Below are positions 10,779 through 17,294 of a DNA stretch of 64,000 nt, one piece after another. The notes beneath the pieces were generated by a model. That model did no database searches. It was not told the origin of the DNA and was given only the letters and a program-made list of their open reading frames with translations. Every line of letters starts with the position of its first letter. The first letter of the stretch is position 1. The stretch covers positions 1 through 64,000 of the forward strand of contig CALIRQ010000013.1 of NCBI GenBank assembly GCA_938042195.1. Reading direction: 5' to 3'. The DNA comes from an uncultured archaeon (GTDB taxonomy: Archaea > Thermoproteota > Bathyarchaeia > 40CM-2-53-6 > CALIRQ01). Both the position numbers and the translations under genes were made by a program.

Positions 10779-11990
10779 TCAGGCACCGATCTTTTCCGCC
10801 CTCCTCCTAATGGCGTTAGCCACCTTCGATGGGAGGCCCCATATCTCCACGAATCCCTCCGAAAGCCTTTGATCGAACCTCGTTTCCAATCCATAGGTCG
10901 CGAGGCTGAGGTCGTATAGGGAGAATGGGGACGATCTGCCAACCACGGAGGCGTTGCCCTTATACAGCCTCATCCTGACAATCCCCGATACCCTCTCCTG
11001 CGTCCTCTCTATGAATCCCTCCAGATCCTCCCTAAGCGGATCTACCCATAGGCCGTAATAGACCAGCCTCGACCAAGCCGAATCGACCAATTGCTTAAAC
11101 TCCAGCTCGTGCCTCGTCAGGACGGCTTTCTCGAGGTCCGAATGGGCCTCGAGTATCGCCACCGCAGCCGGGCATTCATAGAGCTCCCTGGATTTGATGC
11201 CCACAAGCCTATCCTCCAAATGGTCTATTCGGCCGACTCCATGGGAGCCCGCCAGCGCATTGAGCTCCGATATAAGGCCCACGAGCCCCCTCCTTTCCCC
11301 ATTAAGGCTAACCGGCAGGCCCCCCTCAAAGCCTATTTCCAAATGGGCTGGGGAATCCGGCGCCTTCTCTGGTCCCCTCGTCCACTCGAAGGCCGCCTCT
11401 GGGGGCTCCGCGCCCGGATCCTCCAGCGGACCGCCCTCAACGGACCTCCCCCACAAGTTCTTATCCACGCTGAACGTCTTCCCGAGCTCTTCGCTGAGCG
11501 GTATGCCATGCCTCTTGGCGTACTCCAGCTCCTCCTCCCTGCTGAGCCCCCATTCCCTTATCGGGGCTATGATCTTCAGGCTCGGGTCAAGGGCCCTCAC
11601 AGTTACCTCGAACCGGACCTGATCGTTGCCCTTCCCCGTGGACCCATGGGCCACCCCCACGGCCCCCTCTCTCCAAGCGACCTCAACGAGCTTCTTCGAT
11701 ATCAAGGGCCTCGATAGGGCGGTGCTGAGGGGATACTTGCCCTCATATAGGGCGTTGGCCTTTATGGCCCTAGCGATATATTCGCTCGCGAACTCCTCCT
11801 TGGCATCGATCGAGTAATGCCTCAGGGCGCCGAGCTTCAAGGCCTTCTCCTCTATGAGCCTGAGGTCCGAGCCCTGCCCGAGGTCAAGGGTCAGAGTGAC
11901 TACGTCGAAGCCGTACTTTTCTTGGATCCATTTTATCGCCACGGACGTATCCAGCCCACCAGAGTAGGCTAGGACCACGACCTCCTTCAT
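10779..11990 (-). CDS. argG: Argininosuccinate synthase
   Basis: 403 aa; VVVLAYSGGLDTSVAIKW, GSTGKGNDQVRFE. Confidence 0.98.
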   Translation of the reverse strand: MKEVVVLAYSGGLDTSVAIKWIQEKYGFDVVTLTLDLGQGSDLRLIEEKALKLGALRHYSIDAKEEFASEYIARAIKANALYEGKYPLSTALSRPLISKKLVEVAWREGAVGVAHGSTGKGNDQVRFEVTVRALDPSLKIIAPIREWGLSREEELEYAKRHGIPLSEELGKTFSVDKNLWGRSVEGGPLEDPGAEPPEAAFEWTRGPEKAPDSPAHLEIGFEGGLPVSLNGERRGLVGLISELNALAGSHGVGRIDHLEDRLVGIKSRELYECPAAVAILEAHSDLEKAVLTRHELEFKQLVDSAWSRLVYYGLWVDPLREDLEGFIERTQERVSGIVRMRLYKGNASVVGRSSPFSLYDLSLATYGLETRFDQRLSEGFVEIWGLPSKVANAIRRRAEKIGA

Positions 11991-12110
11991 TGGAATCGCC
12001 CTTCAACTCTTCCTATCCCATATTTCCCTTAAAGGCATTGCTTGCTCGCCTGAGCGGCTTCGATCGGAGGGGCGTTTGTATCGATGGTACCGCGGGCCCA
12101 AACGCGCTAA

Positions 12111-12120
12111 AATTTATATA
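12111..12120 (+). promoter_or_regulatory. Predicted TATA box (aatttatata) for the ilv leader and operon
   Basis: AT-rich box in a GC-rich region; TSS expected near 12143, about 18 nt before the leader ATG. Confidence 0.65.
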
Positions 12121-12160
12121 GGGAATCGGCCCCCTGTGGATTGGAGAGCCGATAGGACGA

Positions 12161-12262
12161 ATGTCCAGCGATCGCCCCGACCAGCCGGTCCTCGCCCTCA
12201 CGATCCCAGACCCGGCTCTCGCGGCGATCGGGCTCATCCTCGTAGTAGTTTTGCTCGTTTGA
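12161..12262 (+). CDS. Candidate ilv leader peptide MSSDRPDQPVLALTIPDPALAAIGLILVVVLLV (33 aa)
   Basis: ATG...TGA translated by hand; 9 of the last 10 residues are Ile/Leu/Val; lies between the TATA box and ilvB; stop abuts the hairpin. Confidence 0.7.
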   Translation: MSSDRPDQPVLALTIPDPALAAIGLILVVVLLV

Positions 12263-12301
12263 GCCCAGCGTAGGATTCCTATCGGATCCGCGCGCTGGGC
12301 T
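12262..12301 (+). promoter_or_regulatory. Candidate attenuator hairpin (AGCCCAGCG/CGCTGGGCT, inner GGAT/ATCC, 9-nt loop TCCTATCGG) just before the ilvB SD
   Basis: Perfect 9-bp outer stem; loop 12277-12285 is the exact complement of CCGATAGGA at 12149-12157; ilvB SD GGAGGTG starts at 12303. Confidence 0.75.
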
Positions 12302-12318
12302 TGGAGGTGTTTTGAAAG

Positions 12319-13989
12319 ATGTTAGAACTATCCGGTTCCAAGGCCCTCGTGAAGGCCCTCGAGAAGGAAGGGGTATCGGTGATATTCGGACTGCCGGGCG
12401 GAGCCATAATGCCCGTCTACGATGCCCTTTTGGACTCGGGGATTAGGCACATACTCGCTAGGCATGAGCAATCGGCGGCCCACATGGCCGATGGATACGC
12501 CAGGGCCAGCGGCCGGGCCGGGGTTTGCATGGCCACGTCCGGCCCCGGTTCGACGAACCTCGTGACCGGTATAGCGAACGCCTACATGGATTCCTCTCCC
12601 TTAGTCGCCTTCACGGGCCAAGTCCCGAAGGCGATGATCGGCAGGGACGCCTTCCAAGAGGCCGACATCATAGGGATAACGGCCCCGATAACCAAATACA
12701 ACCACCAAGTCCGATCAGCATCCGAGATACCCAGCGTCGTCAAGAAGGCATTTCTAATAGCCACGAGCGGAAGGCCCGGCCCGGTCCTCGTGGACCTCCC
12801 AAAGGACGTCCAAACGGAGGTCGCTCAGATGGAGTTCCCCGATAGCGTTGAGGTCAGGGGCCTCTCCCTGCCATTGGACCCGGACCCGGAGCTTTTGAAG
12901 AAGGCGGCGGAGCTTTTGGCTGGGGCCGATGCTCCTTTCATACTGGCCGGCGGGGGGGTCAGGATCTCGAACGCCCATCGGGAGCTGGTCAGGTTGGCCG
13001 AGCTCCTGATGGCGCCCGTTGGAACGACCCTGATGGGGAAGGGATGCATTAGGGAGGATCACCCGCTCTCCGTAGGGGTCATCGGCATGCACGGCTCCCC
13101 ATTGGCGAACATGCTCATCGTAAAAGCCGACGTCCTATTGGCGGTTGGGACTAGGTTCGCCGATAGAACTACTTGCGATGTCAAGGAGTTCTGCAAAGAG
13201 GCGAAGATAATACAAATAGACATAGACCCGGCGGAGATAGGGAAGAACAAGAGGGTGCACCTAGGGATAGAGGGGGATGCCCGAAAGGCCATGGCCGGGC
13301 TCGCGGAGGAGCTCGCGAAGAGGCTCAAGGGCGAGAGGCCCGCGCATTGGTACGAGAGGATCAAACAGGTGAAGGCGAAGCTCCATAACGAAGAGGGCGA
13401 TGGCCTATCCGCGCCGCGGCTGTTGAGGAGGCTGAGGAAGTTGCTGCCCGACGACGCCATAGTGACGACGGAGGTCGGCCAGAACCAGATGTGGGCCTCG
13501 CTCCATTTCAAGGCCTATGGGCCGAGGAACTTCATAACCTCGGGCGGCTTGGGCACAATGGGTTTCGGCTTCCCGGCGGCGATAGGGGCGAAGGTGGCCA
13601 GGCCCGAGGTCCCGGTTGTTGACATAGCCGGCGATGGGAGTTTCCAGATGACCATGAACTCCTTGGCCACATCCGTTTCCGAGAAGATCCCGGTGGTGGC
13701 GGTCATATTGAATAATGGGATGCTCGGGATGGTGGCCCAATGGCAGCGCCTCTTCTTCCGGGGCAGGTATTCGGCGGTCGAGATAAAGCCCCCGGACTTC
13801 GCCAAGATAGCCGAGGCCTACGGCGCGCAGGGGATGAGGGCCGAATCCATGGAGGAGTTCGAGAGGGCCGTAAAAGCGGCGCTCGGTAGCGACGTCACGA
13901 CCGTGATAGACGTCCCGATAAGTCCCGAGGAGGACGTCTTCCCCATGGTGCCGCCCGGTTGCAAGCTGGAGGATATGATAGGGGTCTGA
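12319..13989 (+). CDS. ilvB: Acetolactate synthase large subunit
   Basis: ThDP enzyme; VIFGLPGGAIMPVYDAL, DIAGDGSFQMTMNSL...NNGMLGMVAQWQ. Confidence 0.97.
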   Translation: MLELSGSKALVKALEKEGVSVIFGLPGGAIMPVYDALLDSGIRHILARHEQSAAHMADGYARASGRAGVCMATSGPGSTNLVTGIANAYMDSSPLVAFTGQVPKAMIGRDAFQEADIIGITAPITKYNHQVRSASEIPSVVKKAFLIATSGRPGPVLVDLPKDVQTEVAQMEFPDSVEVRGLSLPLDPDPELLKKAAELLAGADAPFILAGGGVRISNAHRELVRLAELLMAPVGTTLMGKGCIREDHPLSVGVIGMHGSPLANMLIVKADVLLAVGTRFADRTTCDVKEFCKEAKIIQIDIDPAEIGKNKRVHLGIEGDARKAMAGLAEELAKRLKGERPAHWYERIKQVKAKLHNEEGDGLSAPRLLRRLRKLLPDDAIVTTEVGQNQMWASLHFKAYGPRNFITSGGLGTMGFGFPAAIGAKVARPEVPVVDIAGDGSFQMTMNSLATSVSEKIPVVAVILNNGMLGMVAQWQRLFFRGRYSAVEIKPPDFAKIAEAYGAQGMRAESMEEFERAVKAALGSDVTTVIDVPISPEEDVFPMVPPGCKLEDMIGV

Positions 13990-14495
13990 AGGGCTTGAAG
14001 ACCTTCATATTCGGGACCTTGGTCGAACATAAGCCGGGGGTCCTACAAAAGGTTTCGAACATGTTCAGGCAGAGGAACTTCAACATAGAGAGCATAACCG
14101 TTGGGCCGACGGAGCGTGGGGACATCGCTAGGATGACCATAACGATGAGGGGCGAGGAAGAGGACGCCGTGCAGTTAGAGAAGCAGTTGAGGAAGCTCAT
14201 AGACGTTCTGGAGGTCAAGCTGCTCGACCCAAGCGAGACGGTCGTGAGGGAGCTGGCCCTCGTTAAGGTTAGGGTTGAGGATTGGAGGGCTAGATCCGAT
14301 CTCGTGAACTGGGCGAACATCTTCAGGAGCAGGATAGTGGATGTGTCCCCCGACTCCATAATGATCGAGATAACAGGAGCGCCATCGAAGATCGATGCCT
14401 TCTTGGAGCTGATGAAGCGCTTCGAGCTCCTCGAAGTATCCCGGACAGGGATCACGGCTATGGAAAGAGGTTTAAACAGGATCGGGCTTAAATAA
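13959..14495 (+). CDS. ilvN: Acetolactate synthase small (ACT) subunit; real start probably TTG near 13995
   Basis: [35 protein letters not shown]. Confidence 0.95.
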
Positions 14496-14502
14496 CGGGG
14501 CG

Positions 14503-15498
14503 GTGGGGCGTATGGCGAGGATATATTTCGACAAGGATATCGAATATGAGGTTATACGGGATAAGACCGTGGCCGTGATAGGTTACGGAAGCCAGGGCAG
14601 GGCCCAAGCCCTGAACATGAGGGACTCCGGGCTGAACGTCGTGGTGGGCCTGAGGCCGAAGGGGAGGAGCTGGGAGAGGGCCGTCGGGGATGGGTTCTCC
14701 CCATTGCCGATCGAGGAGGCCGCCGAGAAGGGGGATATAATCCACATCCTCCTCCCGGACATGGTCCAGCCGCAGGTCTATGAGAGGCATATAGCGAAGC
14801 ATATGGCCGACGGCAAGGCGCTCAGCTTCTCCCACGGCTTCAACATTCACTACGGCCTGATAACCCCCCCAGAGGGCGTCGACGTGATAATGGTCGCCCC
14901 CAAATCCCCCGGGGCTAGGGTCAGGGAGACCTATGAAGCCGGCTCGGGCGTCCCGGCCCTGATAGCGGTCCACAGGGACAGCAGCGGGAACGCCAAGAGG
15001 ATCTCCCTCGAGATGGGGAAGGCCATCGGGTGCGCTAGGGCCGGCTTGATAGAGACGACGTTCGCCGAGGAAACGGAGACGGACATCATAGGGGAGCAAA
15101 CGGTCCTCGTCGGCGGCCTGATCGAGTTGATAAAGGATGGCTTCGAGGTCCTCGTGGAGGCCGGGTACCAGCCCGAGGTCGCATACTTCGAGGTCCTGAA
15201 CGAGGCGAAGCTGATAATGGATATGATAGCCGAGGGAGGATTCATGAAGATGCTCAGGGCCGTTTCCGATACGGCGAAGTATGGCGGCCTGACGGTTGGG
15301 CCGAAGGTCGTGGACAAAAGGGTCAAGAGGAATATGAAGGTCGTCGTCAAGAACGTCAGGAGCGGAGCCTTCGCCAAGGAATGGGTCAGGGTTTGGAGGG
15401 AGAAGCCGGAGAGGCTGAAGGCCCTTATGAAGGCTATTGAGCGCCACCCCATAGAGAGGGTTGGGAGGAAGATACGCAAGCTATCTGGGCTGGAATGA
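14503..15498 (+). CDS. ilvC: Ketol-acid reductoisomerase
   Basis: [34 protein letters not shown]. Confidence 0.98.
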
Positions 15499-15519: not shown

Positions 15520-16782
15520 ATCGGGAAAACCATAAGCGAGAAGGTCCTTTCGAGGGCCTCCGGGAAGCCCAGCGCCTCGGCCGGGGAGATAGTCTTGGCC
15601 GAGGTCGACCTCTTGATGCTCCACGAGATAACGGGGCCGCTGGCCATAAGGGCATTCGAGGAGATGGGCTTCGAGGGGGTATGGGACCCCTATAAGGTCG
15701 TAGTGGTATTCGATCATAACGTCCCGCCGAGCGATATAAGCTCGGCCTCCATGATGCGCGAGATGAGGTCCTTCGTTCGCGCCAAGGGCTTGACCAATTT
15801 CTTCGAGATCGGGAGGGGGGGAATAGCGCATCAACTAATGGCCGAGAGGGGGATGTCGGCCCCGGGGAGGCTGATCGTAGGAGCCGATAGCCATACCTGC
15901 ACGGCCGGAGGCCTTGGGGCCTTCGGGGTCGGCGTCGGGTCGACCGAGGCAGCGGCCGTGCTCGGTACGGGGAAGCTCTGGTTCAGGGTGCCGGAGACCT
16001 TCAGGGTCGTGGTTAGCAATAGATTGATCGAGCCCTCCTCGCCGAAGGACCTGATATTGGAGGTGATAGGGGAGATAGGGATGGAGGGCGCCATATACAA
16101 GGCCATAGAGTACTGCGGCGAGGGCATAAGAGCGATGAGCGTGGATGGCCGGTTAACCTTGGCTAATATGTCGATAGAGATGAGCGCCAAGACGGGAATA
16201 GTGGAGCCGGATGAGAAGGTCGCCTCCTATATAAGGGATAGGACCGGGATGGAGGTGGAGCTCCTCAGGAGCGACGAGGACGCGGAGTTCGAGGAGACGT
16301 TCGAGTTCGATGCCTCCAAGATCGAGCCCCTCGTCGCCGTTCCCCCAAGGATCGACGACGTCAGGCCCGCGAGGGAGCTGGAGGATATCGAGATCGATCA
16401 GGCATTCTTGGGGTCCTGCACCAACGGCAGGCTCGAGGACCTGAGGGCGGCCGCCAGATTGTTGAAATCCAAGAAGGTGAGCCCAAGGGTCAGGATGGTT
16501 GTGGCGCCCGCCTCCATGGAGATATATCGCGAGGCAATGAGGGAGGGCCTTTTGGATATATTCGTGGAGGCCGGGGCGATCGTTTGCGCCCCTTCCTGCG
16601 GCCCATGCCTCGGCATGTCGCAAGGGGTCCTAGGCCCGGAGGAGATCTGCGTCTCCTCGACGAATAGGAACTTCGTGGGGAGGATGGGGCACAGGAGCTC
16701 CAAGGTATATCTGGCATCGCCCGCGACCGTCGCCGCCTCGGCCATCGTGGGCAAGATAATGGATCCGAGGGACATTCGATGA
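15520..16782 (+). CDS. leuC: 3-isopropylmalate/homoaconitate dehydratase large subunit; N-terminus MGKTISEKVLSRASGKPSASAGEIV implies initiation at ATC 15520
   Basis: GADSHTCTAGGLGAFGVGVGSTE, GSCTNGR; homology-like N-terminus extends upstream of the track's TTG at 15595 with no ATG/GTG/TTG before the in-frame stop at 15496. Confidence 0.85.
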   Translation: MGKTISEKVLSRASGKPSASAGEIVLAEVDLLMLHEITGPLAIRAFEEMGFEGVWDPYKVVVVFDHNVPPSDISSASMMREMRSFVRAKGLTNFFEIGRGGIAHQLMAERGMSAPGRLIVGADSHTCTAGGLGAFGVGVGSTEAAAVLGTGKLWFRVPETFRVVVSNRLIEPSSPKDLILEVIGEIGMEGAIYKAIEYCGEGIRAMSVDGRLTLANMSIEMSAKTGIVEPDEKVASYIRDRTGMEVELLRSDEDAEFEETFEFDASKIEPLVAVPPRIDDVRPARELEDIEIDQAFLGSCTNGRLEDLRAAARLLKSKKVSPRVRMVVAPASMEIYREAMREGLLDIFVEAGAIVCAPSCGPCLGMSQGVLGPEEICVSSTNRNFVGRMGHRSSKVYLASPATVAASAIVGKIMDPRDIR

Positions 16783-17294
16783 ACGAATTGACCGGTAGGA
16801 TAATCAAATATCCGGACAACGTCAATACCGACGACATAATACCGGCTCGCTACCTCTCCAGCATGGATATGGACATGGTGGCTGGGCATGCATTCGAGGA
16901 CTACGATCCGGGCTTCAAGGAGAAGCTCAGGGATAGGTGCATCATAGTGGCCGGGAAGAACTTCGGATGCGGGAGCTCGAGGGAGCACGCCGTCATAGTC
17001 CTGAAGAAGGTCGGCATCAAGGCGGTGATAGCGGAGTCATTCGCGAGGATCTTCTTCAGGAACTCGATAAACCAAGGGCTCTTGGCCCTTCAGCTCGATG
17101 GATCCTCGGAGCCATTCGAGGACGGCGATAGTATCAGGATCGACTTGGATAGGGCGGCCGTGGAGAACGAAACCAAGTCGACGATCCATCGCCTGAAGCC
17201 TTTTCCTCGATTCCTGATGCCCATACTCAATGAGGGCGGCTTGGTTCCGTATTTGAAGAGGAGGAGGGGCTGGGAGCTCCAAGGCCCGCTCTAG
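16779..17294 (+). CDS. leuD: 3-isopropylmalate/homoaconitate dehydratase small subunit
   Basis: [39 protein letters not shown]. Confidence 0.93.

Follow-up and report, generated by a model that had tools for sequence, protein, structure and literature searches.

A candidate ribosome-mediated, codon-programmed leader upstream of the archaeal ilvBNC-leuCD operon

In one order of Bathyarchaeia, ilvB is preceded by a short open reading frame (ORF) whose last codons specify mainly isoleucine, leucine and valine (ILV) and whose stop codon runs into a strong stem-loop. We read this arrangement, with a probability of about 0.8, as a ribosome-mediated, codon-programmed leader that would tune ilvBNC-leuCD according to how much charged Ile-, Leu- and Val-tRNA is available. 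The earlier note on this DNA had proposed a candidate ribosome-mediated attenuator from a single genome, and the comparison with relatives supports the proposal and makes the case much stronger. The window, i.e. the whole 64,000-nucleotide stretch that was analyzed, comes from contig 13 of a genome 1.27 Mb in size. Its class is shown to be Bathyarchaeia by named GTDB records: upstream of ilvB, L111 (a genome in this class) has exactly the sequence of L021, 'Candidatus Bathyarchaeota archaeon B26-1'. The material consists of metagenome-assembled genomes, in which start sites are predicted.

Anatomy and conservation of the leader

The features of the locus, as read or predicted from the sequence, are as follows.

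12113..12120, + strand: TATA box TTTATATA, the putative promoter of the operon, identified from the sequence
near 12140, + strand: predicted transcription start, ~20 nt 5' of the leader ORF
12142..12149, + strand: strand A, the leader ribosome-binding region GGAGAGCC, predicted in the minimum-energy fold to pair with the ILV codons (strand B, 12231-12239)
12161..12262, + strand: leader ORF of 33 amino acids, MSSDRPDQPVLALTIPDPALAAIGLILVVVLLV*, with ATG at 12161 and TGA at 12260-12262
12227..12259, + strand: control codons I-G-L-I-L-V-V-V-L-L-V, assigned by codon composition and codon choice, with strand B inside
12261..12302, + strand: stem-loop C:D, arms 12261-12271 and 12292-12302, including GCCCAGCG (12263-12270) opposite CGCTGGGC (12293-12300) and an inner GGAT/ATCC pairing
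12303..12309, + strand: ilvB Shine-Dalgarno (SD) sequence GGAGGTG, identified from the sequence, directly 3' of the stem
12319..13989, + strand: ilvB, acetolactate synthase large subunit (AHAS; Pfam), ATG at 12319, first gene of the operon
13959..14495, + strand: ilvN, acetolactate synthase small subunit (Pfam), given from the longest-ORF start, the real start being probably slightly downstream
14503..15498, + strand: ilvC, ketol-acid reductoisomerase (KARI; Pfam)
15595..17294, + strand: leuC (15595-16782) and leuD (16779-17294), aconitase family by Pfam, the leuCD names being given by context

The TATA box, the leader starting at 12161 and the SD sequence adjoining the 3' arm are present as the earlier note had described them, and the coordinates and translation of the leader, in which 9 of the 10 final codons are Ile, Leu or Val, match the sequence. 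The operon that it had named was confirmed by Pfam for ilvB, ilvN, ilvC and two aconitase-type genes; ilvD (Pfam) lies on the opposite strand. Within the 64 kb window, the leader is the sole ORF of 12-60 codons on either strand with at least eight ILV codons among its last ten.

The ilvB gene is present in 16 of the 38 genomes of the order, 15 of which have enough upstream sequence for analysis (families f1, f3, f4, f5 and f6). An ORF with at least seven ILV codons among its final ten was found upstream of ilvB in 14 of these 15 regions, and one with at least eight in 12, the fifteenth region reaching six; related sequences in this set are not independent. In dinucleotide shuffles of ilvB upstream regions, the same thresholds were reached in 15 of 3000 (0.5%) and 1 of 3000 (0.03%) cases, respectively, and an ILV leader was absent from all 51 regions upstream of ilvB in other families of Bathyarchaeia. 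The presence of an ILV leader before ilvB is far beyond chance. In the relatives, the leader stop is located 56-72 nt 5' of ilvB, a TATA-like box is found 28-59 nt 5' of the leader start, and several leaders start with TTG or GTG. Examples of leader ends from the order are GLILVVVLLV*, LSLLIVIIIG*, LLLVVVVILQ*, IPLIVIVILI*, ILLVVVVLLV* and PSLVIVVILK* (asterisk, stop). Between families, the N-termini and the stem sequences are wholly different; what is retained is the ILV codons and a stem positioned at the stop. The pattern for which the earlier note had proposed to look in relatives, with codon content kept and the N-terminal peptide divergent, is thus the one observed.

The C:D stem comprises 17 bp with a folding energy of -28.5 kcal/mol (at 37 C, the temperature of all folding), and in strength the hairpin exceeds 99.7% of equal-size windows in the locus. 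Its arms and inner GGAT/ATCC pairing had been recognized correctly in the earlier note, but the hairpin does not start after the TGA, as was thought; the stem begins inside the stop codon. In all members of the order the stem starts between -3 and +2 relative to the stop of the leader, and in most loci (L006 is an exception) it is among the strongest local folds. The stem arms are unrelated across families (GAGCCCAGCG in the window, GCCCCACGTGCG in L005, GAGCATGAAGCC in L017 and AAGCGCCTTAAG in L016). No consistent U-tract, as expected for an intrinsic terminator, follows the stem in the window's order, which leaves the transcriptional attenuation that the earlier note had named as one possible output unsupported in its terminator-based form. 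A search of positions 11900-12500 with Rfam 15 returned no match to a T-box, riboswitch or other element up to E=1.

Codon content and rival explanations

Within the genus, the last 11 codons and the stop differ by two synonymous and no non-synonymous changes, and 17 of the preceding 22 leader codons differ non-synonymously. In three of four close pairs the run is preserved by synonymous change while the N-terminus diverges; the exception is the L015/L016 pair, with five non-synonymous changes in the run. Across ten lineages (100 residues), the last ten residues are 85% I, L or V, a fraction that is biased because the ORF was chosen by its ILV content, and A, F, M, W, C and Y are absent. The other 15 residues (S, G, P, Q, T, K and H) have a composition free of this selection bias. 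F and M are missing from the runs despite the shared NTN codon pattern (p = 2e-8), and the run is therefore not readily accounted for by a membrane helix or by a nucleotide pattern. With the ilvB gene at each locus as reference, codon choice is also skewed: AUA is avoided (6 observed vs 23 expected, z -5.4), and both AUU (25 vs 8.4, z 6.9) and GUA (25 vs 10.9, z 5.0) are enriched. In archaea, AUA is decoded by a separate tRNA, and its avoidance fits codon-specific sensing; helix A:B, described below, could account for part of the codon bias.

These data bear on several other explanations of the same locus. The anatomy could be shared by a regulator that responds to the nascent peptide or to translation of the upstream ORF (uORF), by peptide-directed arrest or simple uORF repression of ilvB, and not to tRNA charging. 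Such a regulator would be in keeping with other archaeal ilvB genes, which have short uORFs bearing conserved peptide or nucleotide motifs, and with the fairly fixed LLVDL core of the leaders in ammonia-oxidising archaea. In the window's order, however, the peptide is free except for interchanging I, L and V, and this freedom together with the skewed codon choice makes peptide- or uORF-based control unlikely. A short hydrophobic membrane peptide expressed along with ilvB, the transmembrane-tail caveat of the earlier note, is highly improbable, even though the C-terminus is hydrophobic and small membrane proteins are common among prokaryotes. The run uses I, L and V to the exclusion of A, F, M, W, C and Y (for a set picked by ILV content, p about 1e-19 when compared with a hydrophobic mix containing 60% ILV), and the 15 non-ILV residues include no hydrophobic one. 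At ~9-12 residues the runs are short for spanning a membrane, and the ORF always comes with ilvB and with a stem at its stop. Its conservation in relatives is not that of a membrane peptide.

Very little credence can be given to an RNA-only element, in which a hairpin would bind a protein or ligand and the ORF would be incidental. The position of a strong stem just 5' of the ilvB SD would suit such an element, but the arm and loop sequences share nothing across families, so that there is no conserved binding site, the Rfam search was negative and the coding pattern is frame-specific. A chance origin of the ILV leader is practically negligible: short ORFs are frequent in GC-rich DNA, yet this one is unique on both strands of the window, and its occurrence in 14 of 15 regions of the order compares with 0.5% in shuffles and none in 51 real controls.

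Predicted pairings and a proposed mechanism

For the leader as a sensor of charged tRNA, the pairings of the control codons are of particular relevance. Helix A:B, formed by the leader ribosome-binding site (RBS)/start region and the ILV codons, has moderate support from folding. Its counterparts elsewhere are ACGACGAGT/ACTCGTCGT in L012, AGAAAGGAC/GTCCTTTCT in L005, GACGATGAGTG/CACTCATCGTC in L009 and GATGGGGC/GCCCCATC in L016, and the helix is missing in L017. Comparison of its ensemble weight with codon-order shuffles gave a Fisher p of about 0.001 for 12 lineages and 0.004 for the order's ten. A:B and C:D are mutually compatible, so a classic mutually exclusive switch is not seen.

Other pairings were considered and rejected. 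Pairing of the ILV codons with the ilvB SD (B:E) was no better than in codon shuffles (p 0.1-1.0), and neither pairing of the control codons with the 5' arm of the stem (B:C) nor a hairpin between the 3' arm and the ilvB start/coding sequence (D:F) was consistently better than shuffles across lineages. The window itself contains a perfect 7-bp B:C match between control codons (GGGCTCA, 12230-12236) and the stop codon with the stem base (TGAGCCC, 12260-12266). As B:C is not generally supported in relatives, it is possibly specific to the window's genus.

In the mechanism that we propose, transcription would start ~20 nt 5' of the leader, and a pioneer ribosome would translate the leader behind RNA polymerase. 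When branched-chain amino acids are ample, the ribosome would pass the ILV codons and reach the stop codon, where its footprint would open stem-loop C:D; after its departure, the ILV codons would re-pair with the leader RBS (A:B), shutting further leader translation. When any of Ile, Leu or Val is short, the ribosome would stall on the ILV run and mask strand B, so the leader RBS would stay open, and C:D would stay folded because the first hungry codon for each of the three amino acids is usually located at least 18 nt 5' of the stop (L016 is an exception for Ile). In footprint-constrained folding, masking of strand B opened the leader RBS in some leaders only (L009, L010 and L014). The stalled state would raise expression of the operon, a sign of control that we infer from the biology of such leaders, in which starvation leads to higher expression.

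For the output step, control of RNA polymerase through transcription-translation coupling and control of ilvB translation are both tentative candidates, with a slight lean to the former. In the first case, the stalled ribosome would exclude the terminator FttA, or would act on U-tract termination where a U-tract exists. FttA-linked coupling is attractive because archaeal polarity has been attributed to FttA (PMC12548453) and steric competition between the ribosome and FttA has been hypothesized (PMC11616081). Access to the ilvB SD, the other output suggested in the earlier note, found no backing: in footprint-constrained folding of 28 leaders, the SD and start codon of ilvB did not open or close consistently.

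Leaders in other archaea and relation to known systems

Leaders of this type also occur, independently, outside the order. In ammonia-oxidising archaea, 19 of 38 ilvB loci have at least seven ILV codons among the last ten (null 1.3%) and 26 of 38 at least six (null 5%), the leaders ending typically in ..LLVDL.L* or ..LQVVLLL*; RNAalifold on a MAFFT alignment of these leaders yielded no consensus structure. In L051, L052 and L060 from this group, an in-frame ATG is present ~24-27 nt upstream (AAAATTATGG), which in such loci may be the true ilvB start. It gives a leader-to-ilvB spacing of 35-36 nt, equal to that of L040 and L209. The order of L026/L033 contains leaders ending in ..VALIVLLIVV* (L301), ..AALIVLLIVA* (L304) and ..PVLLVIQLLQ* (L312), with a stem close after the leader followed by the ilvB SD, and in L303 (identical to L026) T6 is found 3' of the stem. 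In the DHVE2 group (phylum Thermoplasmatota), the leaders of L283, L284 and L285 are of the ..LVILLIIIVQ* type, and between leader and ilvB lies a GC-rich hairpin with TTTTTT behind it, 40-50 nt upstream of ilvB. This layout looks like a conventional attenuator and is the most attenuator-like seen here. In L286 and L288, from the DHVE2 order, the ILV leaders are weaker, with a stem located at the stop codon. In L311, an ILV leader (..IIVVNVIVSLLL*) stops only 13 nt before ilvB and no stem is present; a ribosome stalled or terminating there would cover the ribosome-binding site of ilvB, so the geometry of the output would differ.

At the trpE, hisG and HMGL-family loci examined in the window's order, where the flanks are often without the operon's first gene, cognate leaders were not observed. 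In family f2 of that order (G001-G021), IlvB and HMGL-family enzymes are missing from all 21 genomes, HisG gives a single sub-threshold match, and most of the genomes have a chorismate-binding enzyme; the gene content makes branched-chain and histidine auxotrophy probable.

In other Bathyarchaeia and some other Thermoproteota (e.g. L027, L106, L113, L114, L136-L151 and L191), the ILV leader is replaced by a start-anchored mini-ORF, of the type [MV]RDR(H/F/I)L.. in several families and as tandem MGYRF(I/V)../MGYCFI* uORFs in family f27. The mini-ORF pattern matches 36 of 91 loci and 1.3% of shuffles, its DNA also reads as GGGATCG/GGGTATYG hairpin-like motifs, and the eight mini-ORF loci searched gave no Rfam match. 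In the order of G576 (Thermoplasmatota), a strictly conserved GGTTTATCTAACATCTGTGGCG is located 20-90 nt 5' of ilvB in L289-L300; it occurs with a short uORF ending in ..RFI*/GFI*/RLI* in 12 of 15 loci (0.7% of shuffles) and is T-rich after. These uORFs resemble the Bathyarchaeia MGYRFI* uORFs and are possibly another leader class.

The leader of the window shares with the bacterial ilv attenuators (Escherichia coli ilvBN and ilvGMEDA, and Corynebacterium glutamicum ilvBNC) a 5' leader rich in product codons with a hairpin just after it, ilvB as the first gene, and the proposed sensing of charged tRNA through the position of the ribosome. It differs in being archaeal, in having no U-tract terminator in the window's order, in a stem that begins in the leader stop codon, in a codon run that pairs with the leader's own RBS, and in A:B and C:D not being mutually exclusive. 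The LEU element of Actinobacteria, a Leu-run leader before leuA, likewise has control codons near the leader stop, structure before the target SD and no obvious terminator (PMC1262725). Its codon run pairs with the leuA SD (PMC1262725), whereas here the corresponding B:E pairing is not supported and there is no evidence of a pseudoknot. Replacement of the regulatory codons in a similar ilvB leader of Streptomyces coelicolor had no effect (PMC1262725), a sobering precedent that, by analogy, would count against the codon-sensing reading. Termination and polarity by FttA (aCPSF1) would read ribosome position in archaea; amino-acid-specific control by FttA is not known, and its link to the leader is hypothetical. 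According to a 2021 paper, no transcription attenuation was known in archaea (PMC8448881), and our search of the open-access literature, with most subscription papers and bioRxiv lying outside it, found neither archaeal attenuation nor archaeal ilv leaders.

The recurrence of ILV leaders in distant archaeal groups suggests a ribosome-sensing switch like those of bacteria, a type as yet undescribed in archaea. As a more speculative extension, which we regard as possible but doubtful, ribosome-mediated amino-acid attenuation would be widespread in archaea, spanning two phyla or more (Thermoproteota and Thermoplasmatota). The Bathyarchaeia form would then operate without an intrinsic terminator, with the stalled leader ribosome and the stop-codon stem-loop deciding whether RNA polymerase survives FttA-type termination and with the control codons locking the leader start. 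Both the ammonia-oxidising archaea and the DHVE2 group have cultured members, so their versions of the leader make the question directly testable. With conserved cognate-codon leaders before ilvB, archaea would have their first strong case of amino-acid sensing by a translating ribosome, and such leaders would link archaeal transcription-translation coupling to a physiological signal.
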